64,000 nt of DNA from Bombella dulcis (GTDB lineage: Bacteria > Pseudomonadota > Alphaproteobacteria > Acetobacterales > Acetobacteraceae), in the NCBI RefSeq assembly GCF_026385505.1, contig NZ_JANIDV010000001.1:1-64000 (forward strand), read 5' to 3'. Shown one piece after another: positions 1-12,995 of the stretch. How positions within the stretch are numbered: position 1 is the stretch's first letter; every line of letters starts with the position of its first letter. The translations under genes were made by a program, and so were the position numbers. Under the pieces are notes generated by a model that had not been told where the DNA came from, made no database searches, and saw only the letters and a list, made by a program, of their open reading frames with translations.

Positions 1-40
1 TGAAAACATGGAAGGAGCAGCTATGGCAGATAAATAGAAA

Positions 41-73
41 ACCCCCGCACGAGGTTCAAAGTCGGCGGGGGCT
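41..73 (-). terminator. Rho-independent terminator of the leftward prophage operon
   Basis: A stem CCCCCGC/GCGGGGG with a loop of about 15 bases is followed on the minus strand by TTTTC. It lies downstream of the minus-strand gene ending at 161, so it would end that transcript. Confidence 0.55.
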
Positions 74-160
74 AATTGTGCGCCCTACAAGACAAGCACG
101 GAAAGGATAGGCGCACAAATTCCAAAGCTAGCGATTTGATAGGGTTTTTTTTCGGTCTCG

Positions 161-679
161 TCAACAGCTTTCTACAATGACGGCTCGTGGCGATCTTGGC
201 CAAGGGTGCCCGTCTGCCGTTTTGTTGGCTGTTTTCCGCCGTTCTTTGCGATAATCAGACAGCCAAATTACTAGACGATCCAAGAGGTCGAGGCACAACC
301 GACGCCCGTGTTCATATTTCTGGGTATTTTTGAGTTCTGGACGGTACGCCGCCCCGATCTCTTGAAACGATTTCTGCTCGACCAGAAACGAATACGCCAG
401 CCCCCAATAGCCCCATCCATGCTGGTCATAGAATGTCCTGAGTATTGCATGCGTGTCGGCTCGCGAAAGCCGCCATGTCAGTTCATCGCCGGATGCTTCT
501 TCCTGCCCGGCGCTGTTGTATCGTGAGGGGACGGCATCCAGAACTGGATCACGCACCCCGTGTCTTGCCCAGATTTCCCTTGTCCAGAACCACTCTGCTG
601 CCTCGCACTGCTCTGATGTGGCGTTCAGGGATTCCAGATGCCGGTCTAATTTTGTTCGTTTTTCTGTTGTTTCGCCCAT
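161..679 (-). CDS. Hypothetical prophage protein, late-regulator slot
   Basis: I do not recognise this 172-residue protein. It is soluble, with no signal peptide or membrane segment. A stretch around residues 95-115 (EQKSFQEIGAAYRPELKNTQ) looks like part of a helix-turn-helix, and the tail is basic (DYRKERRKTANKT). It is the last leftward gene visible, beyond the replication module and before a terminator. In lambda-like phages that place is usually taken by a late-gene regulator such as Q, so a transcription role is possible but rests on position only. Confidence 0.5.
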   Translation of the reverse strand: MGETTEKRTKLDRHLESLNATSEQCEAAEWFWTREIWARHGVRDPVLDAVPSRYNSAGQEEASGDELTWRLSRADTHAILRTFYDQHGWGYWGLAYSFLVEQKSFQEIGAAYRPELKNTQKYEHGRRLCLDLLDRLVIWLSDYRKERRKTANKTADGHPWPRSPRAVIVESC

Positions 680-742
680 TGCGCTGCCCGTCCTGCCGTG
701 ATAATTAGTTCACACCCCAACAAACAAGAACAGCAGTCACGA

Positions 743-775
743 CCGCCCGGGATCGTCCCCCGGGCGGTTTTTTTT
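743..775 (+). terminator. Strong hairpin with T8 on the plus strand
   Basis: CCGCCCGGG and CCCGGGCGG form a 9-base-pair stem around a 7-base loop, followed directly by eight T on the plus strand. The flanking genes both run on the minus strand, so the transcript it would terminate is not apparent. Confidence 0.55.
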
Positions 776-816
776 GGCCTGCCCAGCTCTATCATTCCCG
801 AATGTGGTTTCAGGCA

Positions 817-1206
817 TCATGCGGACATCCCATACCCTTTGAACGGTGGGAATTCCCGTGTTTTTCTGGTTTTTGACTGCCCGTTATTCTTGGTTTGACG
901 GGCTGCTTTGTTTTTCTCGACGCATCCCTTGCAACGCCATTGCAGGCCGCAGGTTTTGCTCCTGTCTCGACTGAATCGGGAAACAGGTAATGTCTGTAGG
1001 CACTGTCCGCAGATTTTCTGCCCGTTCACCACGGATGTTGTTGAAATTTTTGGTATTTGTCTTGCCGCTTTTTCGGCATAAATCTTCTTTCGTTCGGCCC
1101 GGTAGCATTGCAAGCATGTGTGGCGATATCCGCCTTTGCTTCGGCTGTCCTTGCAGAATTCGGTAAGGGATTTCTCAGCCCCGCATTTCCGGCATGTTCT
1201 GTTCAT
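817..1206 (-). CDS. Small double zinc-ribbon protein, endonuclease VII/HNH-like
   Basis: This 129-residue protein has two paired CxxC modules: CRKCG with CLQC in the first half (residues 5-34) and CGQC with CKGC in the second (about 65-95). Each is followed by K/R-rich sequence. Such repeats occur in phage recombination endonuclease VII-type and HNH-like proteins that bind structured DNA. I see no clear HNH catalytic triad, so the protein may bind DNA without cutting it. It sits in the leftward prophage operon between the replication genes and the late-regulator slot. Confidence 0.55.
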   Translation of the reverse strand: MNRTCRKCGAEKSLTEFCKDSRSKGGYRHTCLQCYRAERKKIYAEKAARQIPKISTTSVVNGQKICGQCLQTLPVSRFSRDRSKTCGLQWRCKGCVEKNKAARQTKNNGQSKTRKTREFPPFKGYGMSA

Positions 1207-1349
1207 GCATACCTCCTGTCGTGGCCTTCAAAATAAAATACCTTCACAGAAGCTCTCTGAGCCACGCCTGTGTCGTGCCCGGTGTCATCCTATCGTAGAA
1301 TGATTTGCACCGCACTCAGCGACGTCCTGTGAGGCTGATAGAGGCATAT

Positions 1350-1997
1350 TCATCCCACCATCGCCTCTCGTTTGGTTTTTATCTCGTCATTGACGCCCTT
1401 CCTGGCCGACCTGAGAGTTTCCTCCTGGTCACGGGTGAGCTGCGGCGGTTCGGTCGGTTCGTGCTCTAGCGGCGGAGCATAACCCAGCGTGAACCGTTTC
1501 CCGGCATCGTGGGTCACGATCAGGCGAACCTTGGTGACCTTGGCCCGATATTCTTCCGCCAGCTCGTTGGCCAGCTCCAGAAAATCAGCCGGAGTTGGCA
1601 TCCACTTGAACCGGGCGAAGCAGGCTTTGGCGAACTTGTCCCCGAACGCACAGCGTGGTGCGTCTTCGAGTGTCATCTGGGCCGCCGCAACCCTCAATTC
1701 CAGCGTTTCACGGTCCAGAGGCTTGATGGCGATTGCGTTCAGCGAGTGATGCAATGTCACAAGAAATTCCCGCAATTCAGCCGGCTCTGCGGGGGACAGG
1801 AACTTTGCCTCAATCGCCTCTGCGGCCTTCCTCGCCTCCGCCACAACGGCACGGGGCAGGTAGGGGAGATGGCTGGCATCGGGGGCGTCCGTCTGCTGCT
1901 CGATCGCCTTGAGCAGGCCGGGGCTGAACTCGATCTTTCCCCCCCGGATCATGGTGGGGAACCGCGATTCTCCGGTGACTGTGAGCTGGTTATCCAT
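1350..1997 (-). CDS. Hypothetical prophage protein downstream of the O-like gene
   Basis: A 215-residue, mostly helical soluble protein with no motif I recognise. Its start (1997) overlaps the end of the O-like replication gene (1990), so the two are translationally coupled. In lambda-like phages the gene after O is the helicase loader P or a replicative helicase. No Walker A motif is visible, so if it has a replication role it is more likely a loader or accessory factor. That role is inferred from order only. Confidence 0.55.
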   Translation of the reverse strand: MDNQLTVTGESRFPTMIRGGKIEFSPGLLKAIEQQTDAPDASHLPYLPRAVVAEARKAAEAIEAKFLSPAEPAELREFLVTLHHSLNAIAIKPLDRETLELRVAAAQMTLEDAPRCAFGDKFAKACFARFKWMPTPADFLELANELAEEYRAKVTKVRLIVTHDAGKRFTLGYAPPLEHEPTEPPQLTRDQEETLRSARKGVNDEIKTKREAMVG

Positions 1998-2799
1998 TGG
2001 CCAAACCCTTCAGGAAATCCATGGACGCCCGGCGGTTTTCCTCCTCTCGGCTCATCCGGCTGGGGAACGGGGTGACGTTGTGGGGCAGTGGGCCGTTACG
2101 GTCGTTTTTTGGCGGAAAAATTCCCTGCCACCCGTTGACCGTGGACTGGTCGAGAACCTCCCCTGGGTCGTGTCCCTGCTGCCGGAATTCGTCCAATTTT
2201 TTCACGATCAGCTGCGCCGCCCGGTCGGTGAACGGCCTTTTCGATTTCCGGCGCATCTCCACGAACCCATCCCACGCCTCGACTGGCATCCAGTCGGGCA
2301 GATCGATTTTCGGTTGTGACGATTTCGGTTTCGAGGCGGTCGATTCCTTCGGATGGGGGGTAGGGGGGATAGAGTGATGGTTATTGGTGGTTATTGGTGG
2401 TTCTGGTACTGCGGAACGAGGTTCCGTTTTGATGGAAGGAGGTTCCGCCAAGACGGAACGAGGTTCCGTTTTTGATGAAGTGGAACGAGGTTCCGTTTTT
2501 TGGGAATTACGTTCCGTTTTTACGGAACGAGGTTCCGTTTCCTCGGAATTGGCGGTCATAGAGAGACGCACGTCATTGAGCCGCATCCAGCTTTCCTTCA
2601 CGAGGAAACCGGCATTCAGCATTGCCTTCTTTGCAGTGCGAATTGCTTTATCGCTAAGGCCAGTGACCTCTTCCAGATAGCTCATGGAGGGGAAGGCCAG
2701 ACCATCGCTGTCAGCACAATCGGCCAGCACCAGAAGAACCAGCTTCTGGGTTGGGCTGACACGCTGTTTTTTTGCCCAGTTGATAGCTTCAATGCTCAT
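1990..2799 (-). CDS. O-like phage replication initiator (winged helix) with internal iterons
   Basis: Start chosen at 2799 (MSIEAINWAKKQ), because this ATG overlaps the upstream stop in an ATGA junction; the longer frame to 2889 lies inside the upstream gene. The product is 269 residues. Residues 1-80 resemble the helix-turn-helix domain of phage replication proteins (SPTQKLVLLVLAD, then LEEVTGLSDKAIRTAKKAM). Residues 90-140 are a low-complexity linker with repeated TEPRS units, encoded by six palindromic DNA repeats described separately. The C-terminal part (DLPDWMPVEAWDGFVEMR) is the likely partner-binding region. The layout parallels lambda O, whose gene contains the phage origin. Confidence 0.75.
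   Translation of the reverse strand: MSIEAINWAKKQRVSPTQKLVLLVLADCADSDGLAFPSMSYLEEVTGLSDKAIRTAKKAMLNAGFLVKESWMRLNDVRLSMTANSEETEPRSVKTERNSQKTEPRSTSSKTEPRSVLAEPPSIKTEPRSAVPEPPITTNNHHSIPPTPHPKESTASKPKSSQPKIDLPDWMPVEAWDGFVEMRRKSKRPFTDRAAQLIVKKLDEFRQQGHDPGEVLDQSTVNGWQGIFPPKNDRNGPLPHNVTPFPSRMSREEENRRASMDFLKGLANG
2412..2537. repeat. Six iterons inside the O-like gene: candidate prophage replication origin
   Basis: Six copies of a 15-base palindrome, consensus CGGAACGAGGTTCCG, start at 2412, 2433, 2454, 2481, 2502 and 2523. Spacing is 21, 21, 27, 21 and 21 bases, so all copies lie on nearly the same helix face, and the one longer gap adds two codons. Copies two and five are imperfect. T-runs follow most copies. 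To the left (2378-2401) is a tandem GGTTATTGGT repeat next to a G-run, a possible unwinding element. Lambda has four palindromic iterons in O; this array is the analogous arrangement. Confidence 0.75.
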
Positions 2800-3149
2800 G
2801 CGACCGAGCCTTTCATCTTCACGCCATTCTCTGTCAGGAACGCCACAACGTCCTCTAGAGACCGGCACACACTCACAGCCCCGCCACACTGGCGGATCCT
2901 TTCATGCAGGGCCGCCTGCGCTTCATTGAGGCGACCTGATTTTGTTTTGAGTTCCACGCAGAGCAGGCGGCCATCGTGCAGGAAATGAAGGTCTGGTACG
3001 CCGGGAATACACCCTCGGTTTTTTCGCCGTCTGCCTTCACGTTTCCCATTCCTCCGGTTCTCGACGGACCATGACAGGCACCCCTCAGGGAGCAGGTGCT
3101 GGAGCTGCCTCCAGATGGAGGCGTGGAGGATATCCTCGCAGTGTCTCAC
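2796..3149 (-). CDS. VRR-NUC domain nuclease
   Basis: This 117-residue protein matches the stand-alone VRR-NUC family of PD-(D/E)XK nucleases. The signature GVPDLHFLHDGRLLCVELKT carries the acidic PD and the E-x-K catalytic pair, followed by GRLNEAQ and a basic N-terminal half. Phage copies of this family cut branched DNA such as Holliday junctions or flaps. It lies directly upstream of the O-like gene with an ATGA overlap, fitting a role in replication or resolution. Confidence 0.85.
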   Translation of the reverse strand: MRHCEDILHASIWRQLQHLLPEGCLSWSVENRRNGKREGRRRKNRGCIPGVPDLHFLHDGRLLCVELKTKSGRLNEAQAALHERIRQCGGAVSVCRSLEDVVAFLTENGVKMKGSVA

Positions 3150-3379
3150 CTGACGAACCTTCCCTTATCATCACGCTTCCGGCACGCTAGGGCGTCATCC
3201 CGCTGGGCACGCAGGCGGCAGTTCTGGGCGATCAGGGCGTCCCTGTCCTCTGCCAGTTTCCGGATGTATGCCATCTCGGTGAGCAGCCGTTCTCTCGCAC
3301 TGCTGAGGGCCAGTTTCAGGGCGCGGTTTTCAGCCCTGATCATGGTACAGCAGTTCACAATAAAATCCAGAATACTCAT
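3146..3379 (-). CDS. Small coiled-coil prophage protein
   Basis: A 77-residue protein with a long amphipathic helix (about residues 15-65, AENRALKLALSSARERLL onwards) and a basic tail (CRKRDDKGRFVR). It is coupled on both sides by 4-base overlaps to the GapR-like gene and the VRR-NUC gene. No family is recognised. It may form dimers or bind DNA, but nothing more can be said. Confidence 0.55.
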   Translation of the reverse strand: MSILDFIVNCCTMIRAENRALKLALSSARERLLTEMAYIRKLAEDRDALIAQNCRLRAQRDDALACRKRDDKGRFVR

Positions 3380-3645
3380 ATTCCCAGTGCCCTCCGGTAC
3401 GTGTCGACAAGCATTTCCTGTTCATCGACGTCAGCAGGGTTCTGCTTGCGGAGCTTGAGAATCTGCTTGATCGCCTTCACGTCAAAACCAGCTGACTTGG
3501 CCTCCGTGAACACGTCCCGGATGTCGGAACCAAGTGCCTTGCGTTCATCTTCCAGACGCTCGACACGCTCGACGATGGAGCGAAGGCGGTCAGCGGCAAT
3601 TCCGCCCACATTGTTGGCTGTTTTGTTGGTCATCTTATTCTCCAT
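3376..3645 (-). CDS. GapR/DUF2312-family DNA-binding protein
   Basis: 89 residues, the same length as Caulobacter GapR. It shows the family pattern: RLRSIVERVERLEDERKAL, then SDIRDVFTEAKSAGFDVKAI and LRKQNPADVDE. GapR forms tetramers that clamp overtwisted AT-rich DNA ahead of replication forks and stimulates topoisomerases. A phage copy between ssb and the nuclease would fit support of phage replication. The ATG overlaps the ssb stop; a second Met four codons later could also be used. Confidence 0.85.
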   Translation of the reverse strand: MENKMTNKTANNVGGIAADRLRSIVERVERLEDERKALGSDIRDVFTEAKSAGFDVKAIKQILKLRKQNPADVDEQEMLVDTYRRALGI

Positions 3646-4103
3646 CAGAATAGGTTTTCGTCATCGCCATATCCGGCGAAGTCGCTCATTGAGGTGCTGC
3701 TCTGGTACTGCTGGCTGTTGTTGGATTGTGCGGGCTGGGGCTGACGGGTTTGGCCCTGACTGTCGAGCAGTATGAGACTGCCCCGGAAGCGGTCGATCAC
3801 GACCTCAGTCGTATATTTTTCCACGCCCTGCTGGTCTTTCCATTTGCGGGTGCGGAGTTCGCCCTCGATGTAGACCTTGCGGCCCTTGCGGAGGTAACGC
3901 TGCGCCACATCACCAACACGCTCATCAAAAATGGAGACACGGTGCCACGTTGTGCGTTCCCGCCGCTCACCTGTGTTGCGGTCCTGCCATGTGTCGCTGG
4001 CGCCGATGGCTAGATTGACAATCTTGCTGCCGGACTGTGTGTTCCTGACTTCTGGGTCACGCCCCAGATTGCCGACAAGGATCACCTTGTTGACGCCGCT
4101 CAT
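3645..4103 (-). CDS. ssb: Single-stranded DNA-binding protein (phage)
   Basis: 152 residues, with the typical OB-fold opening (NKVILVGNLGRDPEVRNTQSG) and WHRV motif, then a Q/S/N-rich linker and an acidic tip ending DDENLF. The usual tip ends in DDIPF, so the partner-binding peptide is slightly divergent. It coats single-stranded DNA during phage replication and recombination. It is coupled to the Rha/KilA gene upstream by an ATGA overlap. Confidence 0.9.
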   Translation of the reverse strand: MSGVNKVILVGNLGRDPEVRNTQSGSKIVNLAIGASDTWQDRNTGERRERTTWHRVSIFDERVGDVAQRYLRKGRKVYIEGELRTRKWKDQQGVEKYTTEVVIDRFRGSLILLDSQGQTRQPQPAQSNNSQQYQSSTSMSDFAGYGDDENLF

Positions 4104-4777
4104 GCCGGAATTCCTTCCTTGGCAACGGTCTCAGCCATTCGGGTCAGCCCTTTGCGGGTCAGAACCATCACATCAGATAGGCGGTCTTCACCGGTGTGCG
4201 GGTCCGTGTAGCAGCGGGTCACGAAACGAACGTATCCGTTGGAGAGCCCGTAATGGGCGGCTTTCAGCTTGGAGCGGCTACCTTCACGGCAGGCCCAGCG
4301 GCGTTCAATCAGGAGACGGGCTAGACGTGTCTGTCCGATGCCCAGCTCACGCCCAGCATCCCGCACGCCCAAATCGTCCTGTGATTGGCTAATAGCGTCC
4401 AGAGCGGCAGCCTTTGGCTCTAGCAATTCCACACGTTCCGCCTTTTCGGCGGCTAGGCGTAGGGCTTCGGATAGAGTGGTGGGGACACGAGGTTGAGCCT
4501 GCTGTTCCAGTTCGAGCCAGCGGTCGATGATCTTCAGTCGCAGGTCAGGCCGGTACCCGGCAACTAGGTTGATTGTCAGGTTCTTGGGGAGCCGATATTC
4601 TTTTTGATCCCGTCCGTAGCTGTCATGATAGATGTGCTCAAAGTTGAGCACATCTTTCCCGATGACATTCAGCATCTTTTCGATGTCACGAACGACGTTG
4701 CGGTGGGCTTTCCCCATCAGCTCCGCAATCTCACGGCTGGACATTGTGAGGCTGGTTGTGGCGATGGATACGCTCAT
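4100..4777 (-). CDS. Rha-family regulator with KilA-C/antirepressor C-terminal domain
   Basis: Start chosen at 4777 (MSVSIATTSLTMSSREIAEL) because AGAGGAG lies six bases upstream and the ATG overlaps the cro stop. Residues 1-95 match the Rha phage regulatory domain (MSSREIAELMGKAHRNVVRD, then DQKEYRLPKNLTINLVAGYR). Residues 110-225 match the KilA-C antirepressor domain (PKAAALDAISQSQDDLGVRD). Such Rha-Ant fusions are common just after cro and are thought to interfere with repressor function during the lytic switch. Confidence 0.85.
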   Translation of the reverse strand: MSVSIATTSLTMSSREIAELMGKAHRNVVRDIEKMLNVIGKDVLNFEHIYHDSYGRDQKEYRLPKNLTINLVAGYRPDLRLKIIDRWLELEQQAQPRVPTTLSEALRLAAEKAERVELLEPKAAALDAISQSQDDLGVRDAGRELGIGQTRLARLLIERRWACREGSRSKLKAAHYGLSNGYVRFVTRCYTDPHTGEDRLSDVMVLTRKGLTRMAETVAKEGIPA

Positions 4778-4974
4778 GATGCGCTCCTCTGGGTGGGGGT
4801 AGATGACAGGGCATTTTGAATTTTCCCTACAGTTCTCAGGGTCGGCGCGGTTTTCCCTGACCGCCATCTGTCCAAAACAGACCGTGCAACGCCTGCTTTT
4901 CTTGCCAGCTCATTCAGGGAAAGGTTTTTCTCCTGAGCGAGGGCTGCAATCTGGGAATAAGTAATAAGTTTCAT
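4774..4974 (-). CDS. Cro-like repressor (XRE helix-turn-helix)
   Basis: A 66-residue HTH protein (SLNELARKAGVARSVLDRWR). It starts the leftward lytic operon and faces the CI-like gene across an 83-base region holding three operator sites. By position it is the Cro analogue, which shuts off the repressor promoter in the lytic state. Confidence 0.8.
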   Translation of the reverse strand: MKLITYSQIAALAQEKNLSLNELARKAGVARSVLDRWRSGKTAPTLRTVGKIQNALSSTPTQRSAS

Positions 4975-4985
4975 AAGAGTTAATT

Positions 4986-5057
4986 AAGCTTTTATGCTTA
5001 TAATGTAAATGCTTTTTTGCTTGTATCTTTTTTGCATACATCGGAGCAAAAAAGCTT
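4986..5057. promoter_or_regulatory. Three-site operator between cro and cI
   Basis: Perfect inverted repeat AAGC-N6-GCTT at 4986-4999 (AAGCTTTTATGCTT), with two imperfect copies at 5009-5022 (ATGCTTTTTTGCTT) and 5044-5057 (GAGCAAAAAAGCTT). Three sites in a divergent repressor region mirror the OR1-3 layout of lambda. The last copy touches the cI start codon. Confidence 0.7.
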
Positions 5058-5759
5058 ATGACTGATTTATCGACACGCATTCGTCAGAAGGCATGGATTG
5101 ATCATATTGCCCAGCTTTCCGGACATAGTTACTCCCGCATAGCCAAAGAGTGTAAGCTTGCTCAAACTACGGTCAGTCGTTTCATGGACGATGCCCAGAG
5201 CAGCAATGCGTTATCCGCCCGCACTGAAGAAAAGATAAAGGCCAGATATGCTTCTTTGCTGGCTGGTAACGAAAATAAGCCATCCACCACAGACATGGCG
5301 CATCCAAAGCAGAGTCATCTGGACGGCACCTATGGCATGGTGCAGATCCCTGAGTTTGACGTGCAAGCTGAGGCCGGCGCGGGACTAGAGGTTCCTGACC
5401 TGCAAGACGCGTCCAAGATATGGACAATCCCCAGAAGTGCCCTGGCTGGGGTACGGGCCACCTCGCTCAACAATCTGGCCATCGTCACGGTGGCAGGTGA
5501 GTCCATGGTCCCGGATTATCTTCCGGGGGAGAAAGTCCTTGTGGATGTGGGGGACCGGACCGTTTCGCATGATGGGGCCTACATCATCCACAATCGCTAC
5601 GGTCTGGTGGTGAAGATGGTCCAGATCATCCCCGGTTCATCCCCTGAGCAGGATGTTCTCCGCATCATCAGCAAGAACCCGGATTATGCTCCGTATGACC
5701 AACCTGTGATGGATGTGATGATACAGGGACGCGTGGTCGGGAAGTGGGTGTGGAAGTAG
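5058..5759 (+). CDS. CI-like prophage repressor with S24 (LexA-type) peptidase domain
   Basis: 233 residues. The N-terminal HTH reads GHSYSRIAKECKLAQTTVSR. A linker follows, then a self-cleavage domain. The catalytic Ser is in GESMVPDY (about residue 148) and the Lys in LVVKMVQ (about 186). A likely Ala-Gly cleavage site is in AEAGAGLEV (about 97-105). It would hold the prophage silent and be cleaved through RecA after DNA damage. The operator copies at 4986-5057 and 7399-7446 are its probable targets. Confidence 0.9.
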   Translation: MTDLSTRIRQKAWIDHIAQLSGHSYSRIAKECKLAQTTVSRFMDDAQSSNALSARTEEKIKARYASLLAGNENKPSTTDMAHPKQSHLDGTYGMVQIPEFDVQAEAGAGLEVPDLQDASKIWTIPRSALAGVRATSLNNLAIVTVAGESMVPDYLPGEKVLVDVGDRTVSHDGAYIIHNRYGLVVKMVQIIPGSSPEQDVLRIISKNPDYAPYDQPVMDVMIQGRVVGKWVWK

Positions 5760-5801
5760 TTTGTTGATAAACCTTTTTAGAAGTATAGGGAGATTATAAA
5801 A

Positions 5802-6740
5802 ATGGCAGATAGGTTTCAGCGTAATTTTTGGTTCTATAAGGCAAGCTATTGTGTTTTAGGGAAGCCTTCGGAAAATCTTTCTTTGAAGGATGCAATTAAT
5901 GAAATTTATAATTTGAGAGAATTGGGGAACACATGTGAATGTGATTTTTCACCTTCAAAAACTTCTCACGATTATAGGTATAGTGGCTGCATAAGTGATA
6001 TATATAGAGAGGATAAGCTTGCAATAATTCTTCTTGGTGCAATTGATAGGGAACATGATCAAGCCGTTGGAGATGAAAGAAATTTTAATTTTAGGAATGC
6101 AGCAATGCATGACAATGAACATACAGCTGAAGCTATACATATTCTCATAGATTTCTCTGAAAAAGTAAGTGGATATACTGTTATCGTGGAAAAAGGTAAT
6201 GTTATATCTCCACATTTAGCATTTAAATTTTTAAATAACATTCTAAAAAAATATGTTCAATTTACAGATGGAAACGATAATATTGTGCAAGGTAGGTTGT
6301 CAGCATCAAAATCTGTTGATTCTTCTCTTAAGGAAGAACTTAATGGAGCTGAAATAACATATTTTGATTTTAAGAGAAAGCCAATTAACGACGAACTCCA
6401 TGATGAAGATATAGCTGCACCTAAAGAGTCGAAATTGATTTTCAAAGTTAAGGAGAAGAATTCATTTTCATGGGTGAATAAACTTTTAGCATCAAAAACT
6501 GCTAAAAAATACGAAGATTACACTTTAAAGTATCGCGATAATTCTGGGAATAGCCATACAGCATCTTCACGTATTGCTGATATACAGGATATTCTATCCG
6601 ATTTAGTTCATAGGCGTGTAATAATACAATTTGATGATATTCTTCCTCCGGTGTGCCATGAAGTTCATGAAAAGATACGTGACAAAATGATAGAAGTAGA
6701 TCATACATATCTAAATGAGATCATATCTTCTCAGTACTAG
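5802..6740 (+). CDS. AT-rich cargo protein next to the repressor, function unknown
   Basis: A 312-residue soluble protein of no family I can name with confidence. It opens MADRFQRNFWFYKASYCVL and contains ASRIADIQDILSDLVHRRVI near the end. No transmembrane segment or signal peptide is visible. The gene is far richer in A/T and rare codons than the phage genes on either side, which suggests separate acquisition. It lies directly after cI, the usual place for lysogenic-conversion genes such as superinfection exclusion or anti-phage factors. The membrane-protein gene at 6742 begins one base after its stop, so the two probably act together. Confidence 0.6.
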   Translation: MADRFQRNFWFYKASYCVLGKPSENLSLKDAINEIYNLRELGNTCECDFSPSKTSHDYRYSGCISDIYREDKLAIILLGAIDREHDQAVGDERNFNFRNAAMHDNEHTAEAIHILIDFSEKVSGYTVIVEKGNVISPHLAFKFLNNILKKYVQFTDGNDNIVQGRLSASKSVDSSLKEELNGAEITYFDFKRKPINDELHDEDIAAPKESKLIFKVKEKNSFSWVNKLLASKTAKKYEDYTLKYRDNSGNSHTASSRIADIQDILSDLVHRRVIIQFDDILPPVCHEVHEKIRDKMIEVDHTYLNEIISSQY

Positions 6741-6741
6741 G

Positions 6742-7323
6742 ATGTATAAGATGTTTGCGTTTCTCATTCTGCCAGTGAGGAGATATTTTCGTATAAGAAA
6801 TAAACAAAAAAATCGTATTGATAAGTGGTCTGTATTTTTTGGTTTTGTAATATCTTTTTCTGCATTTTCTCCTAATTTCCAAATTTCTGGGGAAAATGGT
6901 CTAACATCTGAGATGGGGGCATTTTTGGCTGCTTTGGCTGGTTTTTTTATTACTGCCTTGGCAGCTATCGCAACATTCCCGGGAACAAAAGATTATTCTT
7001 TAGAAATGCCGTTAAGAGGAGAGGGTGTTTTTCTAGGAGAAGATTGTCTTTCGAGAAGACAGTTTTATTGTATTTTGTTCGGTTATCTGTCGGAAATTTC
7101 TATAATTTTGGTTTTATTATGTAGTTTTTTACCCTTATTTATAAAAATAATTCCTTCTTCATTTTTAATTCCTTGTTTTGTCTTTATAGGAAGGTTTTTG
7201 TTTTTGTGTATGGTTCTTCCATTTTTCTGCCATATGCTGGCAACATTTATGCTGGGCTTAGTTTTTTTGTCAGTTCGTATGCATGAAAACAGTCATGATT
7301 ATAAGATAACGAGGAAAAAATAG
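6742..7323 (+). CDS. AT-rich multi-spanning membrane protein paired with the 5802 gene
   Basis: Start taken at 6742 (MYKMFAFLIL), one base after the upstream stop; an in-frame ATG at 6715 would overlap it. The product is 193 residues with about four membrane segments (SVFFGFVISFSAF; MGAFLAALAGFFITALAAIA; LSEISIILVLLCSFLPLFI; FVFIGRFLFLCMVLPFF) and a charged tail. The composition matches the preceding gene. A soluble protein plus a small membrane partner in the lysogenic cargo position fits exclusion or abortive-infection modules, but no known family is recognised. A terminator follows at once. Confidence 0.6.
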   Translation: MYKMFAFLILPVRRYFRIRNKQKNRIDKWSVFFGFVISFSAFSPNFQISGENGLTSEMGAFLAALAGFFITALAAIATFPGTKDYSLEMPLRGEGVFLGEDCLSRRQFYCILFGYLSEISIILVLLCSFLPLFIKIIPSSFLIPCFVFIGRFLFLCMVLPFFCHMLATFMLGLVFLSVRMHENSHDYKITRKK

Positions 7324-7343
7324 ATTGCTTAATTTATTTCAAC

Positions 7344-7365
7344 CGCCCTTCGGGGCGTTTTTTTT
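7344..7365 (+). terminator. Terminator after the cargo pair
   Basis: CGCCC-TTCG-GGGCG hairpin with a UUCG tetraloop, followed by eight T. It ends the cI/cargo transcript before the next operator block. Confidence 0.8.
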
Positions 7366-7398
7366 GTGTCTGTTGGCAGGATGTCTCATAAAAGAATA

Positions 7399-7446
7399 AA
7401 GCATAAAAGCTTTTAATCGGCATTGACATTATAAGCATAAAAGCTT
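7399..7446 (+). promoter_or_regulatory. Second operator block and promoter of the rightward early operon
   Basis: Two perfect copies of AAGCATAAAAGCTT lie at 7399-7412 and 7433-7446, the same AAGC-N6-GCTT palindrome as near cI. A TTGACA -35 box lies between them at 7423-7428, and the second copy fills the space down to a weak -10 (TACCTA). This is the expected design of a repressor-controlled OL-type promoter. Confidence 0.7.
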
Positions 7447-7485
7447 ACCTATGACCTCACACCACACGAACACGGAGGTGACGAG

Positions 7486-7746
7486 GTGGAAAACAGCAGG
7501 AATGAAGCCCTGTCTCGAATCAAGGCGGTCCATGCCGACCTGGAAATGATTTCGGAGGCAAGCGGCCTGACAATAGATGAGCGAAACGAACTCATAACAG
7601 CGAAAGTTGCTATCGATACCCTGATTGACAGCCTGTCATATCCACAGGAGATGCGTGGTCCGATTACTGAATCATCTTTCCCTGCCATTGGCCACTTCAG
7701 GAATGAAGACCTTGATGCCCTGACGATCAGGGGAGAGACCAAATGA
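7486..7746 (+). CDS. Small hypothetical early phage protein
   Basis: 86 residues from a GTG start with a good GGAGGTGA site upstream. The protein is helical and acidic with no recognised motif. It is the first gene of the repressor-controlled rightward operon and overlaps the next gene by four bases. Confidence 0.6.
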   Translation: MENSRNEALSRIKAVHADLEMISEASGLTIDERNELITAKVAIDTLIDSLSYPQEMRGPITESSFPAIGHFRNEDLDALTIRGETK

Positions 7747-8066
7747 ACGCCATTGAGTCCCAAATTTCTCGTACCAAACGCCCCTCAGATAGCGGCCTTC
7801 TGGAGCGTGTCGAGAATGGCCGTAATCCTTCAAAGCGTGCCGTTCTTGCGCTGATCAGCCGTACAGCTGACGTTCTGGACAAGAATGACTGGCTGAATGA
7901 GTGCCTGGAAGATGAAACGTACGTGGCGTTCGATGCGCTCGATAAGCTGAGAGGCAAGTTAAGCGATTGTATCGACGAAGACGATACGGGCGTAACGGAA
8001 GTTAAGCGGCATGAAGACGCTATAAAGCAACGTCACGATTATAACCGGAAGAGTGAAGCGGCGTAA
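7743..8066 (+). CDS. Small hypothetical early phage protein
   Basis: 107 residues, charged and soluble (RTKRPSDSGLLERVENGRNP near the N-terminus; acidic ECLEDETYVAFDALDKLRGK in the middle). It is coupled to the gene before it by an ATGA overlap. Function is not recognisable. Confidence 0.6.
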   Translation: MNAIESQISRTKRPSDSGLLERVENGRNPSKRAVLALISRTADVLDKNDWLNECLEDETYVAFDALDKLRGKLSDCIDEDDTGVTEVKRHEDAIKQRHDYNRKSEAA

Positions 8067-8107
8067 CCGCTAGTTAGAACTACCAAATAAACTGAGGATT
8101 TTTTGAG

Positions 8108-8341
8108 ATGCTGAAAAACGCAGTCAGGAAAAGTGCGTCCTTTTTATGCCCGGGAACTCTGGAGCGGTCGGAATATCAGATTATGACCAGGCGTCACATT
8201 GGATCGCTGAAGGAAGATATCAAGAGCCTGCTTCAGGAGTCAGATAGTGCATCCCAGAACGGACAACACCTTTATGCAAGCGGCCTTGAGCATGATGCAA
8301 CCGTGATGATGCGTAAGCTCATTGAGATGGGGGCGTTCTGA
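8108..8341 (+). CDS. Small hypothetical early phage protein
   Basis: 77 residues, helical, with a basic N-terminus (MLKNAVRKSASFLCPGTLER). Its TGA shares one base with the ATG of the next tiny gene. No family is recognised. Confidence 0.5.
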   Translation: MLKNAVRKSASFLCPGTLERSEYQIMTRRHIGSLKEDIKSLLQESDSASQNGQHLYASGLEHDATVMMRKLIEMGAF

Positions 8342-8469
8342 TGGAAAAGGTGTTTTTCATCATACTTATTTGTGCCCTTGGGGCTCAGGGAATTGTCGCC
8401 TGCCACGAAGATGCGGAAAAACCCGTTCATACGCCCGCATGCTCCAGTGAAAAGGGAGGAGCAAGATGA
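8341..8469 (+). CDS. Tiny predicted lipoprotein (42 residues)
   Basis: The frame begins MEKVFFIILICALGAQGIVA and continues with Cys21, then an acidic, Pro-rich tail. A short hydrophobic signal ends in the lipobox-like IVAC, so it may be lipidated. It overlaps the preceding stop (TGATG) and the following start (ATGA), which supports real translation in the operon. Tiny phage lipoproteins sometimes act in exclusion or lysis; nothing here decides that. Confidence 0.5.
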   Translation: MEKVFFIILICALGAQGIVACHEDAEKPVHTPACSSEKGGAR

Positions 8470-9485
8470 GCGAGAAAAAATACGAACTGACGGAAGAGAC
8501 AATAAGTTTCCAAGGGCGCACTCTGCACCGTATTCGGGCACTCGTCGACATAGAGTCTGCCGGGGTTTCACCGGGCGATTTAGGTGGATACGTAGAAACA
8601 GAATTTAACCTTGATCAATCGGGTAATGCGTGGATCTTCGGGAATGCCAGCGTGTTCGATAATGCCAAGGTGTTCGATAATGCCAAGGTGTTCGATAATG
8701 CCAAGGTGTTCGATAATGCCTTTGTGTTCGGGAATGCCAAGGTGTTCGATAATGCCCAGGTGTTCGGGAATGCCAAAGTCTCCCGGGAGGCCAAGGTGTA
8801 CGGGTATGCCGAGGTGTACGGTGATGCCCTGGTGTCCGGGCGTGCCGAGGTGTACGGGGATGCCAGGGTGTTCGGGGATGCCGGGGTGTCCTGGGATGCC
8901 AAGGTGTTCGATAATGCCGAGGTGTACGATAATGCCTTTGTGCTCGGTGATGCCAAGGTGTTCGATAATGCCCAGGTGTTCGGGAATGCCAAAGTCTCCC
9001 GGGAGGCCAAGGTGTACGGGTATGCCGAGGTGTACGGTGATGCCCTGGTGTTCGGTGATGCCGAGGTGTACGGGGATGCCAGGGTGTTCGGGGATGCCAA
9101 AGTCTCCCGGGAGGCCAAGGTGTACGGGTATGCCGAGGTGTACGGTGATGCCCTGGTGTTCGGTGATGCCGAGGTGTACGGGGATGCCAGGGTGTTCGGG
9201 GATGCCAAGGTGTTCGGGAATGCCAAGGTGTCCTGTGATGCCCGCATTTCTGGGAAAACGGATTATTTTTTCGTTGGCCCTGTTGGATCAGAATGCGGCG
9301 TTCTTACAATATTCCGCACAGAGAACGGGGTTTCTGTGAACAGGGGGTGTTTTTCTGGAACCCTATCAGAGTTTGAAGATGCTGTTCGGAGAAAACACGG
9401 AAGTAATAGATACGGTGACGAATACCGCCTTTTGATCAAGCTTGCCCGCCTGCGGGAAAAAGAATGGCTCAAGGAGGGTGAGTGA
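8466..9485 (+). CDS. Hexapeptide-repeat (left-handed beta-helix) phage protein
   Basis: 339 residues. Residues 1-55 form a non-repeated head (MSEKKYELTEETISFQGRTL), about 57-260 are some 34 six-residue units of the type N-A-x-V-F/Y-G/D, and the last 75 residues are a separate tail. The repeat spacing, with Ala and Val at fixed positions, predicts a left-handed parallel beta-helix, as in YdcK-like and other prophage proteins rich in VYGNA repeats. The function of these phage proteins is not established. The DNA repeats are nearly exact, so length is likely to vary between strains. Confidence 0.75.
   Translation: MSEKKYELTEETISFQGRTLHRIRALVDIESAGVSPGDLGGYVETEFNLDQSGNAWIFGNASVFDNAKVFDNAKVFDNAKVFDNAFVFGNAKVFDNAQVFGNAKVSREAKVYGYAEVYGDALVSGRAEVYGDARVFGDAGVSWDAKVFDNAEVYDNAFVLGDAKVFDNAQVFGNAKVSREAKVYGYAEVYGDALVFGDAEVYGDARVFGDAKVSREAKVYGYAEVYGDALVFGDAEVYGDARVFGDAKVFGNAKVSCDARISGKTDYFFVGPVGSECGVLTIFRTENGVSVNRGCFSGTLSEFEDAVRRKHGSNRYGDEYRLLIKLARLREKEWLKEGE
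8640..9245 (+). repeat. 18-base tandem repeats with higher-order duplications
   Basis: The coding repeat is an 18-base unit of the form GGTGTTCGATAATGCCAA. Longer blocks are also duplicated: the stretch reading AAAGTCTCCCGGGAGGCCAA and its downstream units occurs near 8777, 8991 and 9099. All unit lengths are multiples of 18, so the frame is kept. Confidence 0.9.
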
Positions 9486-10378
9486 TGAGTAAGATCGTCG
9501 ATCCCGGCATCTACAACCTAACGAGCGAGCAATACCATGCGGACCCGTGCCCGGAGGCCAGCTTGTCCAATTCAATCGCCAAGGTTCTACTAGATCAAAG
9601 CCCACTCCATGCACGGTTCAGACATCCTCGCCTGAATATTGACAGGCCAGATTTCCAGCCGACGAAGCCAATGCAGAAAGGATCGGCATTGCACAGGCTA
9701 ATTCTGGGGAAAGGAGCGGATATCGTAGCGATACCTTTTGATAACTACCTTAGCAAAGCAGCTAAAGAAGCTCGGGATGCAGCTCAGGCAGGAGGGAAAA
9801 TTGTCCTTCTGGAGTATGAGTATGAAGCAGTTCTGGCATGTGCTGAGGCGGCCCGTGATCAGCTGATGCAGAGAGAGGACTGCGCCGCTTTTTTCGAGCC
9901 GGGGCAGTCCGAGGCCGTCATAGCGTGGCGGGAGAGGGACATCTGGTGCCGTGGGATGGTGGATTTCCTGCCGGATAATCCCAGATCCCCATTGTTTGAC
10001 CTGAAAGGCACGACCAAGAGTGCATCGCCCCAGCAATGGAGCCGCTCACTTGCAACGGAATACCGCACGCAGGACCGTTTTTATGCTCGTGGCATGAAGG
10101 CAATACGGGGGATTTCTCCAGAGCCAATGCGGTTCATCGTAGTGGAGATGAACGCTCCTTACGCTGTTTCTGTTCTCACCCCCGCTCCAAGTCTCCGTCA
10201 TGTGGCGGATGAGAATGTCACCCGTGCAATCCGTATCTGGAGCGAGTGCATGAAGAGCGGGAAATGGCCCGGATATCCTCACATGGCCCACGTGGAGGCC
10301 CCTGCATGGCTCATTAATGAGCAGGAAGAGCAGGAGATAAGGGATGACATTCTGGCGGAATTTGGAGATGCGGCATGA
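9485..10378 (+). CDS. RecE/exonuclease VIII-like PD-(D/E)XK nuclease
   Basis: Start at 9485 (MSKIVDPGIYNL), with GGAGG eight bases upstream and an overlap with the previous stop. The 297-residue product matches the exodeoxyribonuclease VIII PDDEXK-like domain: LSNSIAKVLL near the start, KGSALHRLIL, CRGMVDFLPD supplying the first acidic residue, then LFDLKGTTKSASPQQW with the D-x-K pair. It would chew one strand of a double-strand end for phage recombination. The next gene, a RecA-like ATPase, overlaps by four bases. Confidence 0.85.
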   Translation: MSKIVDPGIYNLTSEQYHADPCPEASLSNSIAKVLLDQSPLHARFRHPRLNIDRPDFQPTKPMQKGSALHRLILGKGADIVAIPFDNYLSKAAKEARDAAQAGGKIVLLEYEYEAVLACAEAARDQLMQREDCAAFFEPGQSEAVIAWRERDIWCRGMVDFLPDNPRSPLFDLKGTTKSASPQQWSRSLATEYRTQDRFYARGMKAIRGISPEPMRFIVVEMNAPYAVSVLTPAPSLRHVADENVTRAIRIWSECMKSGKWPGYPHMAHVEAPAWLINEQEEQEIRDDILAEFGDAA

Positions 10379-11460
10379 GCTTTACGATTAAACCGGCCGT
10401 TCGGGAAAAGATTGGTCTTCTGTTTGGTATCGCTGGGGCTTCTGGCTCCGGAAAAACGTTCTCTGCTCTGACGCTGGCTGAGGGGATCAAGGGAAAGAAT
10501 GGGAAGATTGCCGTTATCGATACGGAAGCCGGGCGTGCCCTTCATTACGCACCACGTCCCGGTCAGAAGGCTGACCCCTCCAAAGGTACGTTTGATTTCC
10601 TCCATGTTGACTTCCAGCCGCCTTTTGAGCCGATGCGTTATATCGAAGCGATCCGGGCGGCCGAGAAAGCTGGGGCAACGGTTATCGTAATCGACAGCAT
10701 GAGCCATGAGTGGGACGGGGAAGGCGGATGTTCTGATATGGCGGAGAGGGCGGCCCTGGCGGCGGCCACTGACCGTCAAGGTAATATCCAGCAATGGAAG
10801 GTTGAAGCTATGACCGCTCCAAGCTGGAAGAAGCCAAAGCAACAGCACAAGCGTATGATGGCACGCTTGATTCAAACACGCACGCATTTGATTTTCTGCC
10901 TAAGGGCACAGGAGAAGATCAAGTTCGAAAAGGTTGAGAACCCAGAAACAGGGCGAACACGCAACGAGATTAGGCAGATGGGATTTCAGCCAATCTGTGA
11001 AAAGTCTTTCATGTTCGAGCTGTCTGGTTCCATGACCATGCACCCTGAAACTCCTGGACAGCCCTGCTATGACCTGCCTCACAAGCTAAACCATGAGTTG
11101 CAGCAAATATTCCCTGAAGGGAAGCGAATTATCGCAGAACAGGGGGCCCGCCTGAAAAATTGGGCAGAAACCGGAACTGACAGGCCTCCGGAAGATAGGA
11201 GCATGGTGGAAGCTCGCGAAATGGTGGAGGCCATCCAGGATGCGGCAACAGTGGAAGCCCTTCAGAAACTCACAAGCGACCAGGGGTTCATGGGCTTAAG
11301 GGAGAAGCTTAGGGCAAGCCGCCCTCAACTGTCAGAGCGGGTTGATAGGGCGGTTAGAGACAAGATGGCCTCATTTGAGGCCAACGAGAATGAACTGGGA
11401 GGAACAGAAGCCTCAACACACTCTGGCACTGATGATCTGGAGGTCCCATCATGGGTCTGA
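10375..11460 (+). CDS. RecA-like AAA ATPase of a phage recombination module
   Basis: 361 residues with Walker A GIAGASGSGKT at about 18-28 and a Walker B-like VIVIDSMSHEWDG at about 100-112. The order and strand spacing fit the RecA-fold phage ATPases related to Sak4-type annealing proteins. The C-terminal 90 residues are helical and acidic. Coupled directly to the exonuclease VIII-like gene, it probably replaces a RecT/Beta annealase. The exact subfamily is inference. Confidence 0.7.
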   Translation: MSFTIKPAVREKIGLLFGIAGASGSGKTFSALTLAEGIKGKNGKIAVIDTEAGRALHYAPRPGQKADPSKGTFDFLHVDFQPPFEPMRYIEAIRAAEKAGATVIVIDSMSHEWDGEGGCSDMAERAALAAATDRQGNIQQWKVEAMTAPSWKKPKQQHKRMMARLIQTRTHLIFCLRAQEKIKFEKVENPETGRTRNEIRQMGFQPICEKSFMFELSGSMTMHPETPGQPCYDLPHKLNHELQQIFPEGKRIIAEQGARLKNWAETGTDRPPEDRSMVEAREMVEAIQDAATVEALQKLTSDQGFMGLREKLRASRPQLSERVDRAVRDKMASFEANENELGGTEASTHSGTDDLEVPSWV

Positions 11461-11636
11461 TCATCTCCCTACTTATCGCCGGGTATCTGACCCCCGGCAT
11501 TCTGTGGCGCATCAGCATGCTGCGTACCAGCAGTGGATACCGTCCTGGCCTGACCAGTGCCGTGGTGTGTGTGACCCTCTGGCCGCTCATCGGGGCCGCT
11601 GAACTGAATGAATGGGTGAAGGAGAGAATGGCGTGA
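11451..11636 (+). CDS. Small membrane protein of the phage early operon
   Basis: 61 residues with two hydrophobic segments (MGLIISLLIAGYLTPGI and SAVVCVTLWPLIGAAELN). It overlaps the ATPase gene by ten bases. Function is unknown. Confidence 0.55.
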   Translation: MGLIISLLIAGYLTPGILWRISMLRTSSGYRPGLTSAVVCVTLWPLIGAAELNEWVKERMA

Positions 11637-11824
11637 CTCTTTTAATCATAATAGCTTCTTTCCTCTACCTCTGGTCTGGTTTATTCGCCCGATACAGGGA
11701 GACGATCTACCGGCCCCGCTGTCCCCGTGGCATATGGTCAGTAATCAGCACCGTTTTATTCTGGCCGTACAAGATAGCGGTCATGTTCTGGAAGGAGTGG
11801 AGGCGGGAATGCCCGATCAAATAA
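11633..11824 (+). CDS. Small membrane protein of the phage early operon
   Basis: Read from a GTG at 11633, four bases inside the previous gene, giving 63 residues. It has an N-terminal membrane segment (VTLLIIIASFLYLWSGLFA) and a second one (VISTVLFWPYKIAVMFW), with basic ends. It may work with the preceding small membrane protein, but no family is recognised. Confidence 0.45.
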   Translation: MTLLIIIASFLYLWSGLFARYRETIYRPRCPRGIWSVISTVLFWPYKIAVMFWKEWRRECPIK

Positions 11825-12201
11825 CAAAACTGACAGCTCAGATTGTCGAAGCGTATCTTACAAATCATGAGGTGACAGCCGAGGCGGTACCTGGTTTGAT
11901 CCGTTCTGTTCGTAATGCCCTTGCCGCTGAGGCAAGCCCGGTTAAATCAGAGCAGGAGAAGCCTGTTCCAGCCGTGCACCCTCGCAAGTCCGTATTCCAT
12001 GACTACATCATCTGCCTAGAAGATGGGAAGAAGCTCAAGACACTGAGGCGGCATCTTATGTCAACTTACGGCATGACTCCACAACAGTATCGGGAGAAGT
12101 GGGACCTCCCAAGCACCTATCCGATGGTGGCACCATCCTATTCCGTGCGGCGGTCAGAGATTGCGAAAAATAATGGTTTGGGAAGGAATGTTGATGACTG
12201 A
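11809..12201 (+). CDS. Ros/MucR-family regulator lacking a zinc-ligand cysteine
   Basis: Start at 11809 (MPDQITKLTAQIVEAYLTNH). The 130-residue product matches Ros/MucR: the helical N-terminus, then YIICLEDGKKLKTLRRHL, GMTPQQYREKWDLP and YPMVAPSYSVRRSEIAK. Classical Ros has CxxC before the F-x2-L-x2-H stretch; here the second Cys is Asp (CLED). Zinc-free Ros homologues with such changes are known in Mesorhizobium, so the fold may be intact. It is a DNA-binding regulator, possibly acting on host as well as phage promoters. Confidence 0.85.
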   Translation: MPDQITKLTAQIVEAYLTNHEVTAEAVPGLIRSVRNALAAEASPVKSEQEKPVPAVHPRKSVFHDYIICLEDGKKLKTLRRHLMSTYGMTPQQYREKWDLPSTYPMVAPSYSVRRSEIAKNNGLGRNVDD

Positions 12202-12388
12202 ACCAGAACTCAAGCCGTTCCCGTTTTGTCCTGATGGGGGGGGACCTGTTGGACGCAAAGAAAGCCGCTACCTGACCAATCTTTATTACGCTGTCTGTAA
12301 GGAATGTAACGCCAACGGTCCGTGGAATAGTCGGGCACAAGAGAAGGCCATAGGGGCGTGGAACACCAGAGCGGGGGAGAAGGGATGA
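12194..12388 (+). CDS. Lar-like restriction-alleviation zinc-ribbon protein
   Basis: 64 residues from 12194 (MTEPELKPFPFCPDGGGPVG). The pattern follows the Lar family: LKPxPFC, a middle CKEC, and a closing AIGAWNTRA. In typical members the first motif is KPCPFC with two Cys; here the first Cys is Phe, so zinc binding may be weakened. Lar of the Rac prophage relieves type I restriction. Similar tiny proteins are common near phage recombination genes. Confidence 0.7.
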   Translation: MTEPELKPFPFCPDGGGPVGRKESRYLTNLYYAVCKECNANGPWNSRAQEKAIGAWNTRAGEKG

Positions 12389-12570
12389 GCGGGCAGATTT
12401 ATATTTCTGTGAAGAAGACCGCTGAGATTGTTGGGGTTAACCAGAGAACGATCTGGAGATGGGTCGGTAGCAACAAGTTCCCAGCTCCTTCAATCCAGAC
12501 GGGGGGAGCAACACGCTGGTCTGAGCAGGCAGTGAGGGACTGGTGCTCTCGGAACGGAAGGGCCGCCTAG
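12385..12570 (+). CDS. AlpA-family DNA-binding protein, probable excisionase
   Basis: 61 residues from 12385, overlapping the Lar-like gene in ATGA. A MerR-like winged helix (KKTAEIVGVNQRTIWRWV) and SNKFPAPSIQTGG match AlpA regulators and phage excisionases. It is the last phage gene before the host junction, where xis is expected. No integrase accompanies it. Confidence 0.75.
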   Translation: MSGQIYISVKKTAEIVGVNQRTIWRWVGSNKFPAPSIQTGGATRWSEQAVRDWCSRNGRAA

Positions 12571-12995
12571 GCGGGATAAAAGTGGGTAAAAGGGTGGGTA
12601 ACATAATCTTACCCACCCATTAAACTTGTTGCATATAGCCACTTTTATGCGCTGTTTTGTATCCCAGCCTAGGACATTCATAACGGGATCGGAACAGTGA
12701 AAACGTGATTGTGACAGGGTGTACCGTGTGAGGCTTCCATGATCATGGACGGTTGGGGAGCGGTGCCGTCCTGTTTTTTCCGGCCGGGGTTCTGCAGGTC
12801 ATGTTACGTTTTTGTAACATGATGGTGTCCTCCGGGCATCATGGTCAGAATTGTCAGCATTCATCAGGGGAAACGGCCTTTCCTGAGAGGGGGCTGTGCC
12901 GGGGGGCATGGCGGGGTTGGTTTTCAGGGGGGATGTGCGGGGCAGCCTGTTTTGGTAGAGTAAGGTCTGGCAATTTTTTCATCCAGGAGGGGGCC
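12571..12995. other. 425-base gene-free junction between prophage and host
   Basis: No convincing gene. It holds a perfect 10-base inverted repeat GGGTGGGTAA/TTACCCACCC (12592-12618) next to a second GTGGGTAA, a 12-base palindrome CCATGATCATGG (12737-12748), and an inverted repeat CATGTTAC-N6-GTAACATG (12800-12821). Composition moves from phage-like to host-like here. It probably contains attR, but the core cannot be set because the other prophage end is outside the window. Confidence 0.5.
12800..12821. promoter_or_regulatory. Perfect inverted repeat, possible operator
   Basis: CATGTTAC, six bases GTTTTT, then GTAACATG. The form suits a dimeric regulator. It is about 175 bases upstream of the gene at 12996. 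No T-run follows, so a terminator is unlikely. Confidence 0.35.

Follow-up and report, generated by a model that had tools for sequence, protein, structure and literature searches.

A divergent, putative RexAB-type gene pair in a defence-swap slot behind the cI-like repressor of a Bombella dulcis prophage

Introduction

Directly behind the cI-like repressor gene of a prophage in Bombella dulcis lie two AT-rich genes, here called A and B. The locus raises the question of what these genes encode and whether they constitute a defence module. An initial annotation, made from the letters of the DNA, held that neither protein matched a familiar family and proposed a new two-component defence system. 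We address the question using the window, by which we mean the whole stretch of DNA analysed (64,000 nucleotides, positions 1 to 64,000 of contig NZ_JANIDV010000001.1), together with related loci in phages, viral contigs and genomes. The obvious point of reference is phage lambda, in which the genes are ordered cro, OR, cI-rexA-rexB, OL. RexAB ranks with the oldest phage-exclusion systems on record, its trigger is described as still unknown, and only five RexAB-like systems have been described according to a 2026 paper (PMC12894663).

Organization of the locus

The locus comprises the following features:

4774..4974, minus strand: cro-like HTH regulator of 66 aa, divergent from cI (HTH_3, E 1.5e-11)
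4986..5057: right-operator-like cluster between the cro-like gene and cI, with one exact and two two-mismatch copies of AAGCATAAAAGCTT
5058..5759, plus strand: cI-like repressor of 233 aa, with HTH and Peptidase_S24 domains (PF00717, E 1.6e-9)
5802..6740, plus strand: A, soluble protein of 312 aa in the PDC-M53A family, with a predicted RexA fold (PADLOC, AlphaFold2, Foldseek)
6742..7323, plus strand: B, four-helix membrane protein of 193 aa in the PDC-M53B family (PADLOC, PHROG, AlphaFold2)
7344..7365, plus strand: intrinsic-terminator-like hairpin (stem 7344-7357) and T run, closing the slot
7399..7446: left-operator-like cluster, with two exact copies of AAGCATAAAAGCTT and a partial third at 7387
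7486..7746, plus strand: first early gene past the second operator block, the right flank common to the sister phages

The coordinates of A and B between cI and the second operators were confirmed. Both ORFs are intact and lie on the same strand, with one base between the A stop and the B start; an in-frame ATG at 6715 is an alternative start that would extend B to 202 aa. The cI stop at 5759 precedes the A start by 42 bp, and cI, which also matches a PHROG transcriptional repressor family (E 4.9e-21), would be the first gene of a cI-A-B unit. The G+C content of positions 5802-7323 is 0.328 versus 0.541 in positions 1-12700 of the window minus the cargo, and it falls below that of all 1189 equal-size segments taken in 50-base steps clear of the cargo (lowest value 0.350). 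The remark that the composition is unlike that of the phage was thus borne out.

Operator-like clusters bracket cI-A-B on both sides. The 14-mer AAGCATAAAAGCTT occurs exactly at 4986 (minus strand), 7399 and 7433, and with two mismatches at 5009 (minus strand) and 5044. When up to three mismatches are allowed, there are eight matches in the 64 kb, five of which are these cluster copies; the chance expectation is a mean of 3.24 matches, with a maximum of 7 over 100 shuffles. Three terminator-like sites were found in positions 4700-7800 versus 2.3 expected, so the consensus match at 7344-7365 is not exceptional, and the folding z-score of that hairpin is -1.85. Its stem and T run are nearly identical, and in the same place, in two sister phages that carry other cargo. 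For this reason we assign the putative terminator to the slot or the phage backbone, and not to the cargo as the initial annotation had it; its conservation is better evidence for a terminator than the consensus match.

The slot behind cI in sister phages

Two genomes of the host's genus, G273 and G296, hold sister phages with the same flanks. Up to the CI stop, the 3' half of their CI genes shows 87% and 89% nucleotide identity to the window; the early gene further downstream is 72% identical in G273 (window 7453-7681) and 74% in G296 (window 7454-7649). In both, the interval homologous to window 5760-7339 is occupied by a different cargo:

G273:C1:884500-891500 (L195): BstA
G296:C1:637800-644800 (L196): ABC-3C module

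The G273 slot encodes one 319-aa protein, identified as BstA by PADLOC (E 1e-101) and lacking any Pfam match. BstA is a prophage-encoded abortive-infection family (PMC8585504). The G296 slot encodes an HNH protein (PDC-M68A, E 3e-74; Pfam ABC-3C CTD10), an ABC-3C middle component (MC6, E 1e-13) and a DUF2326 ATPase (PDC-M68B, E 1e-186). A CI match at E 1e-20 was found in 30 of 299 genomes, and the slot was examined in four besides the host's own: these two and two more distant ones. One of the latter (L197) has unassigned ORFs in the slot, two of which were tested and gave no PADLOC match; in the other (L198) the next large ORF is on the opposite strand, with no comparable cargo. One slot behind cI thus takes RexAB-type, BstA or ABC-3C cassettes, which makes it a place to seek prophage defence genes.

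Two other differences among the sister phages were observed. In its C-terminal part CI is 87-88% identical to its counterparts in L195 and L196, but both its N-terminal HTH part and the operator sequences diverge from theirs, as would be expected if the operators had been swapped along with the DNA-binding specificity. Positions 8466-9485 of the window encode a 339-aa early gene product built of near-identical VFDNAKV/VYGDARV-type repeats, and its counterpart in the G273 sister phage, with a length of 90 aa, resembles it at the N-terminus. The repeat number of this gene seems to vary between sister phages.

Protein families and predicted structures

Both proteins matched models of PDC-M53, a candidate system of PADLOC-DB 2.0.0: A matched PDC-M53A (PDLC04697) at E 7e-10 and B matched PDC-M53B (PDLC04699) at E 5e-22. 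B also matched PHROG 8257 (E 2.6e-14), a family of unknown function. These matches run counter to the statement that neither protein has a recognizable family. Neither gave a significant match in Pfam or NCBIfam, and no homology to a non-defence function emerged from the family searches (Pfam, PADLOC, PHROG and NCBIfam). No mechanism is stated in the PADLOC entry for PDC-M53. According to PMC11811056, the PDC label marks unpublished candidates from Payne et al. 2021. No paper found in our searches, which took in few subscription papers and no bioRxiv preprints, names PDC-M53, and the available text of the RexABpp paper (PMC12894663) mentions neither PADLOC nor PDC.

The AlphaFold2 model of A, built with 39 sequences, has a mean pLDDT of 84.1 and a pTM of 0.76. 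Foldseek searches of the PDB returned lambda RexA (8twq) as the best solved match (E 6e-5, prob 1.00), and the only matches below E 0.001 were the two chains of that entry (6e-5 and 1.5e-4). Alignment with VIA-align also placed RexA first (Z 9.2, rmsd 3.5, 144 residues), followed by RdgC (Z 7.9, rmsd 7.4) and yeast Iml3 (Z 6.5). RdgC and IML3/CHL4 are among the relatives named for RexA by Adams et al. (PMC11077077). Whole-chain TM-scores of A versus RexA are low, at 0.26-0.29. The same authors interpret their RexA crystal as a closed state, with domains swung relative to an open form, and this may explain the low scores; the middling Z could also reflect a common fold arrangement. A RexA/RdgC fold is therefore predicted for A, from the model. 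Sequence searches of the PDB with A1, A2 and A3 gave chance matches or none.

A is acidic (pI 5.76), versus 9.16 for RexApp of Pseudomonas putida and 8.61 for lambda RexA. It also has T241 at a position occupied by K or R in 35 of the 39 alignment rows (window included). On these two grounds DNA binding by A is perhaps weakened and should not be assumed.

The AlphaFold model of B (pLDDT 91.7) shows four long helices (residues 21-41, 54-78, 105-136 and 144-179), in agreement with the four-helix membrane protein first described. Window B keeps the family stretches GFFI-ALAAIATF and RRQF and is a putative RexB-type membrane effector. The structural and remote-homology comparison thus succeeded for A, which led to the lambda RexA fold, and gave no convincing match for the B model in the PDB (E 1.4 or higher) or BFVD (best E 0.22). 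RexB of RexABpp is likewise reported to have no homologue by HHpred (PMC12894663).

At the sequence level, no link between A and RexA or between B and RexB was found with HMM libraries or with hhalign and its controls. Neither window protein matched the RexA/RexB HMMs (PF15969/PF15968 and PDLC02339/02340), all of which recognized lambda Rex (E 1e-97 and 9e-92 for Pfam, 9e-110 and 9e-61 for PADLOC). Using hhalign, single and four-member family profiles were compared with lambda Rex; the best result of these runs with the RexA profile as query was P 0.0023 and probability 12.7%, and with the RexB profile P 0.0092 and probability 4.4%. Among 300 control ORFs, 3 scored at or above lambda RexA, none at or above a distant RexA, and 40 at or above each of two other RexAs, and the reversed RexAs were equalled by 2, 3, 9 and 253 of the 300. 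The four RexBs were equalled by 2-4 of only 31 membrane ORFs and the reversed RexBs by 9-13. The profile comparison of PDC-M53 with lambda Rex is at noise level, and by these searches the window pair lies outside the lambda RexA/RexB sequence families. Sequence homology to lambda Rex was rejected as a claim, given that the hhalign scores are too weak.

Distribution and linkage of the family

Single-sequence searches with A or B in phages, plasmids and viral contigs (and with A also in genome contigs) returned no record or one, and it was the B alignment, used as a profile, that alone opened the family. The B profile search identified 113 relatives among viral contigs and another 68 loci among the genomes of named organisms. 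From these we assembled 148 loci, namely the best 80 of the 113 viral relatives, ranked by likeness to window B, and the 68 genome loci; L009 (in G082), where an 83-aa fragment of B lies close to the end of a contig, was left out of all counts.

In 137 of the 148 loci (76 of the best 80 of 113 viral, 61 of 68 genome) an intact A is the gene immediately upstream of B, and the co-occurrence called for at the outset is thereby well documented. The A model for this count was made from 50 A proteins, including upstream ORFs of the 80 viral loci, and the figure of 76 of 80 is therefore partly by construction, whereas the 61 of 68 genome loci lie outside the model. The gap between the genes has a median of 6 bp and is at most 30 bp in 133 of the 137 pairs (the viral part again being the best 80 of 113); ORFs were called from the first start codon, which may misplace starts. 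Before the genome loci were added, the 81 A proteins formed one BLAST-linked group at E <1e-4, which window A joins via P0003 (7e-14), L028 (4e-5) and L059 (9e-5).

The 11 loci without an intact called A are of several kinds. In one (L100) a full-length match to A stops 7 bp short of B; in two (L039 and L042) A is split over two frames and B is open (168 and 191 aa); and in two (L085 and L131) a C-terminal A fragment persists. B is at a contig edge in L093, L040 and L135, and A of L093 is cut by the contig edge. L093 and L135 are MAG contigs labelled cyanobacterium and Kurthia, may be contaminated, and are the basis of no claim. The other three (L099, L132 and L143) have no A match anywhere in the locus and encode B proteins of 182, 203 and 155 aa. 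The split genes of L039 and L042 hint that losing A is tolerated as long as B is there, or they may reflect sequencing error.

Gene-by-gene inspection of six annotated records found both proteins by HMM in each. In Shigella phage SfII the pair lies between Q and the holin gene S in antisense orientation; Salmonella phage F1055 carries it; in Moraxella phage Mcat23 it follows a 237-aa ORF that is repressor-like by eye; two Vibrio elements whose capsid gene is PM2-like encode it; and in an E. coli prophage it lies beside Q. Of 5426 complete E. coli genomes, 24 contain DNA like the E. coli subtype, 23 of them over >80% of the query. Judged from gene content, the cargo crosses virus realms, from Caudoviricetes to corticovirus-like elements. 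In the corticovirus-like Vibrio elements L011 and L163 (PQ189338.1 and PQ189345.1) A-B lies near one genome end, in PQ189345.1 beside an integrase-like gene. At L010 (G656:C1:1-16000) A-B and a gyrB-like gene converge close to the beginning of a contig of chromosome size; no phage gene was noticed in the vicinity, and this is possibly a stand-alone chromosomal copy. The names GyrB and Cro for unannotated ORFs, like that of the Mcat23 ORF, were assigned by eye.

The linked pairs among the examined loci come from Pseudomonadota and one Thermodesulfobacteriota genome. PDC-M53B was detected in 2 of 398 genomes of the phylum, one being the window's own, and in 4 of 299 genomes of the host family, counting the own genome and one contig-end fragment; among the 11 genomes of the host's genus, 1 has the pair. 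Pfam RexA was found in 0 of 398 phylum genomes, a count that allows no inference, as controls also gave 0. On the B family tree, window B sits on one of the longest branches and groups with L012 and G018 (100/95).

Of the 138 loci with an upstream ORF (the 137 with an A match and L099, the viral part being the best 80 of 113), at least 26 have an S24-type repressor up to 3 kb upstream on the same strand. This is a lower bound, obtained with an iterative HMM at E 1e-4 in neighbourhoods that end at locus ends. On a tree of 98 non-redundant B proteins, the S24 trait (18 rows, window included) needs 9 changes, of which at least 7 are forced by well-supported branches. It follows that the pair entered or left the rex slot several times.

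A tested relative in Pseudomonas putida

One family member has almost surely been studied experimentally. RexABpp is the pair PP_5643/PP_5644 of prophage P1 in P. putida, described by Rosendahl et al. (PMC12894663), who report that defence against some phages requires both genes. In the same paper RexApp binds DNA, and its overproduction halts growth only with RexBpp, the growth-suppressing effector. A fraction of RexABpp cells is leaky and depolarisation was not detected, RexApp in trans failed to restore defence, and contact between RexApp and RexBpp was not seen by two-hybrid assay. The printed mass of His-tagged RexApp is 37.5 kDa, and two genes separate the repressor from rexA (PMC12894663).

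We take the locus L087 to be RexABpp because its B residues, the mass of its A protein and its neighbourhood agree with the paper. Six of the seven RexBpp residues named there are present at the stated positions in L087 B; 146 of the 148 B proteins have at most three, and the only other one above three is L139 (five), the sister of L087 on the tree. L087 A has a mass of 36.64 kDa, and the repressor is 918 bp upstream, leaving space for two small non-overlapping ORFs between cI and A. L087 matches PDC-M53A at E 8e-157 and PDC-M53B at E 3e-72. The IMG number of its contig presumably corresponds to KT2440.

Function of the pair and alternative explanations

Family membership, the predicted RexA fold, linkage of the two genes, the lambda-like layout and the defence modules in sister slots make it the best reading that A and B are an abortive-infection pair of divergent RexAB type, in a slot where defence cassettes are swapped. 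We put the probability at roughly 0.7 that the pair works like lambda RexAB, as a divergent member of the PDC-M53 family to which RexABpp also belongs. The prophage would transcribe cI-A-B from the repressor-maintenance promoter, in which case A and B would be made in the lysogen. A, with its RexA fold, could act as a sensor of DNA or of a phage nucleoprotein or protein; infection by another phage would lead A to activate B, and B would then compromise the inner membrane, halting growth and aborting the infection. Thus co-transcription with cI, sensing, activation of B by A, membrane damage and protection are what we infer for the window pair. Defence may not be its main role, since lambda Rex also tunes the lysis-lysogeny switch.

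That last consideration can be taken further. A might, like lambda RexA, bias the CI/Cro switch, with phage exclusion as a side effect. In favour are the position of A immediately after cI and a report that lambda RexA tips the lysis-lysogeny switch toward lysis (PMC11077077). We consider this improbable, however, given that an S24-type repressor was identified upstream in only 26 of 138 loci (a lower bound), that the SfII pair is antisense between Q and S, that the sister phages put BstA or ABC-3C in the slot, and that RexABpp left repressor promoter activity unaltered (PMC12894663). Quite unlikely is a toxin and neutraliser pair with reversed roles, in which soluble A is the effector and membrane protein B keeps it inactive until infection. 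Mycobacteriophage Butters gp30/gp31 have the same architecture and are a precedent as told in PMC12894663, and B alone is tolerated in the three loci lacking a detectable A. The closer tested relative points the other way: overexpressed RexA was harmless without RexB, and among 38 suppressors of RexABpp the entire prophage was missing from 30 and the rexA cassette from 1, and the remaining 7 had mutated rexBpp (PMC12894663). Nor do the two loci with split A and open B suggest that unopposed A is toxic, although sequencing error could account for them.

A mechanism like that of Kiwa, in which a membrane protein senses injection and a soluble protein binds incoming phage DNA, seems very unlikely. 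The component kinds are the same, membrane-embedded KwaA and DNA-binding KwaB (PMC12904381). The best fold match of A is RexA, however, and no Kiwa model appeared among the PADLOC matches to E 10, a negative that counts only if the library contains Kiwa models. In Kiwa the membrane gene comes first. Kiwa had been our first guess from component sizes and was dropped after the RexA fold match. The least credible alternative, that the AT-rich cargo has decayed or is neutral and serves no function today, could draw on the long branch of B, acidic A with its T241 substitution, and the presence of the pair in only one genome of the genus. Against it stand two intact, tightly spaced ORFs, the conserved stretches of B, and the defence modules held by the slot in two sister phages.

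Returning to the preferred RexAB-type reading, we also consider a broader proposal, which we regard as possible but doubtful. PDC-M53 could be a second Rex lineage, either very old or assembled independently, with a RexA-fold sensor and a membrane effector unrelated to lambda RexB. It would have spread through tailed phages, corticovirus-like elements and chromosomes and repeatedly entered the cI-rex slot, and acidic window A would perhaps be triggered by a phage protein or nucleoprotein and not by bare DNA.

The suggestion of a defence cargo in the initial annotation has held up: the family is a listed candidate, its member RexABpp is anti-phage (PMC12894663), and sister slots hold BstA and ABC-3C. 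Its novelty must be revised, in that the pair belongs, as a divergent member, to a candidate family already on record, and A has the predicted fold of lambda RexA. What appears to be new is the tie of PDC-M53 to the RexAB type, the breadth of the family and the swap slot, not a new kind of system. The candidate family, which extends from Caudoviricetes such as SfII to corticovirus-like Vibrio elements, is now linked to the RexAB type. The 137 linked pairs among the examined loci are a divergent set with which to ask what RexA senses, and whether RexB-type effectors have one origin.

Comparison with known systems

The gene order in the window is that of lambda: cro-like gene, operators, cI-A-B, terminator, operators. 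A soluble gene is likewise followed by a small membrane gene, and A has the predicted RexA fold. Sequence similarity between the window pair and lambda RexAB is not significant, and B, with 193 aa versus 144 aa in lambda RexB, is at most a putative relative of it.

With BstA and ABC-3C/PDC-M68 the window pair has in common the homologous slot behind the same CI and only that, the protein families being different. With PDC-M53 the relation is one of membership, both window proteins matching its models; B scores below the other scanned members and A modestly, which marks the pair as divergent.

RexABpp is the closest tested system. It belongs with the window pair to the PDC-M53A/B family by HMM, and both have the order A-B behind a CI-like repressor, a RexA-like fold and a four-helix membrane partner. 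They differ in sequence (identity of the window to L087 is about 15% for A and 27% for B), in charge (basic RexApp versus acidic A), and in the interval between repressor and rexA, which holds two genes in P. putida and none in the window.
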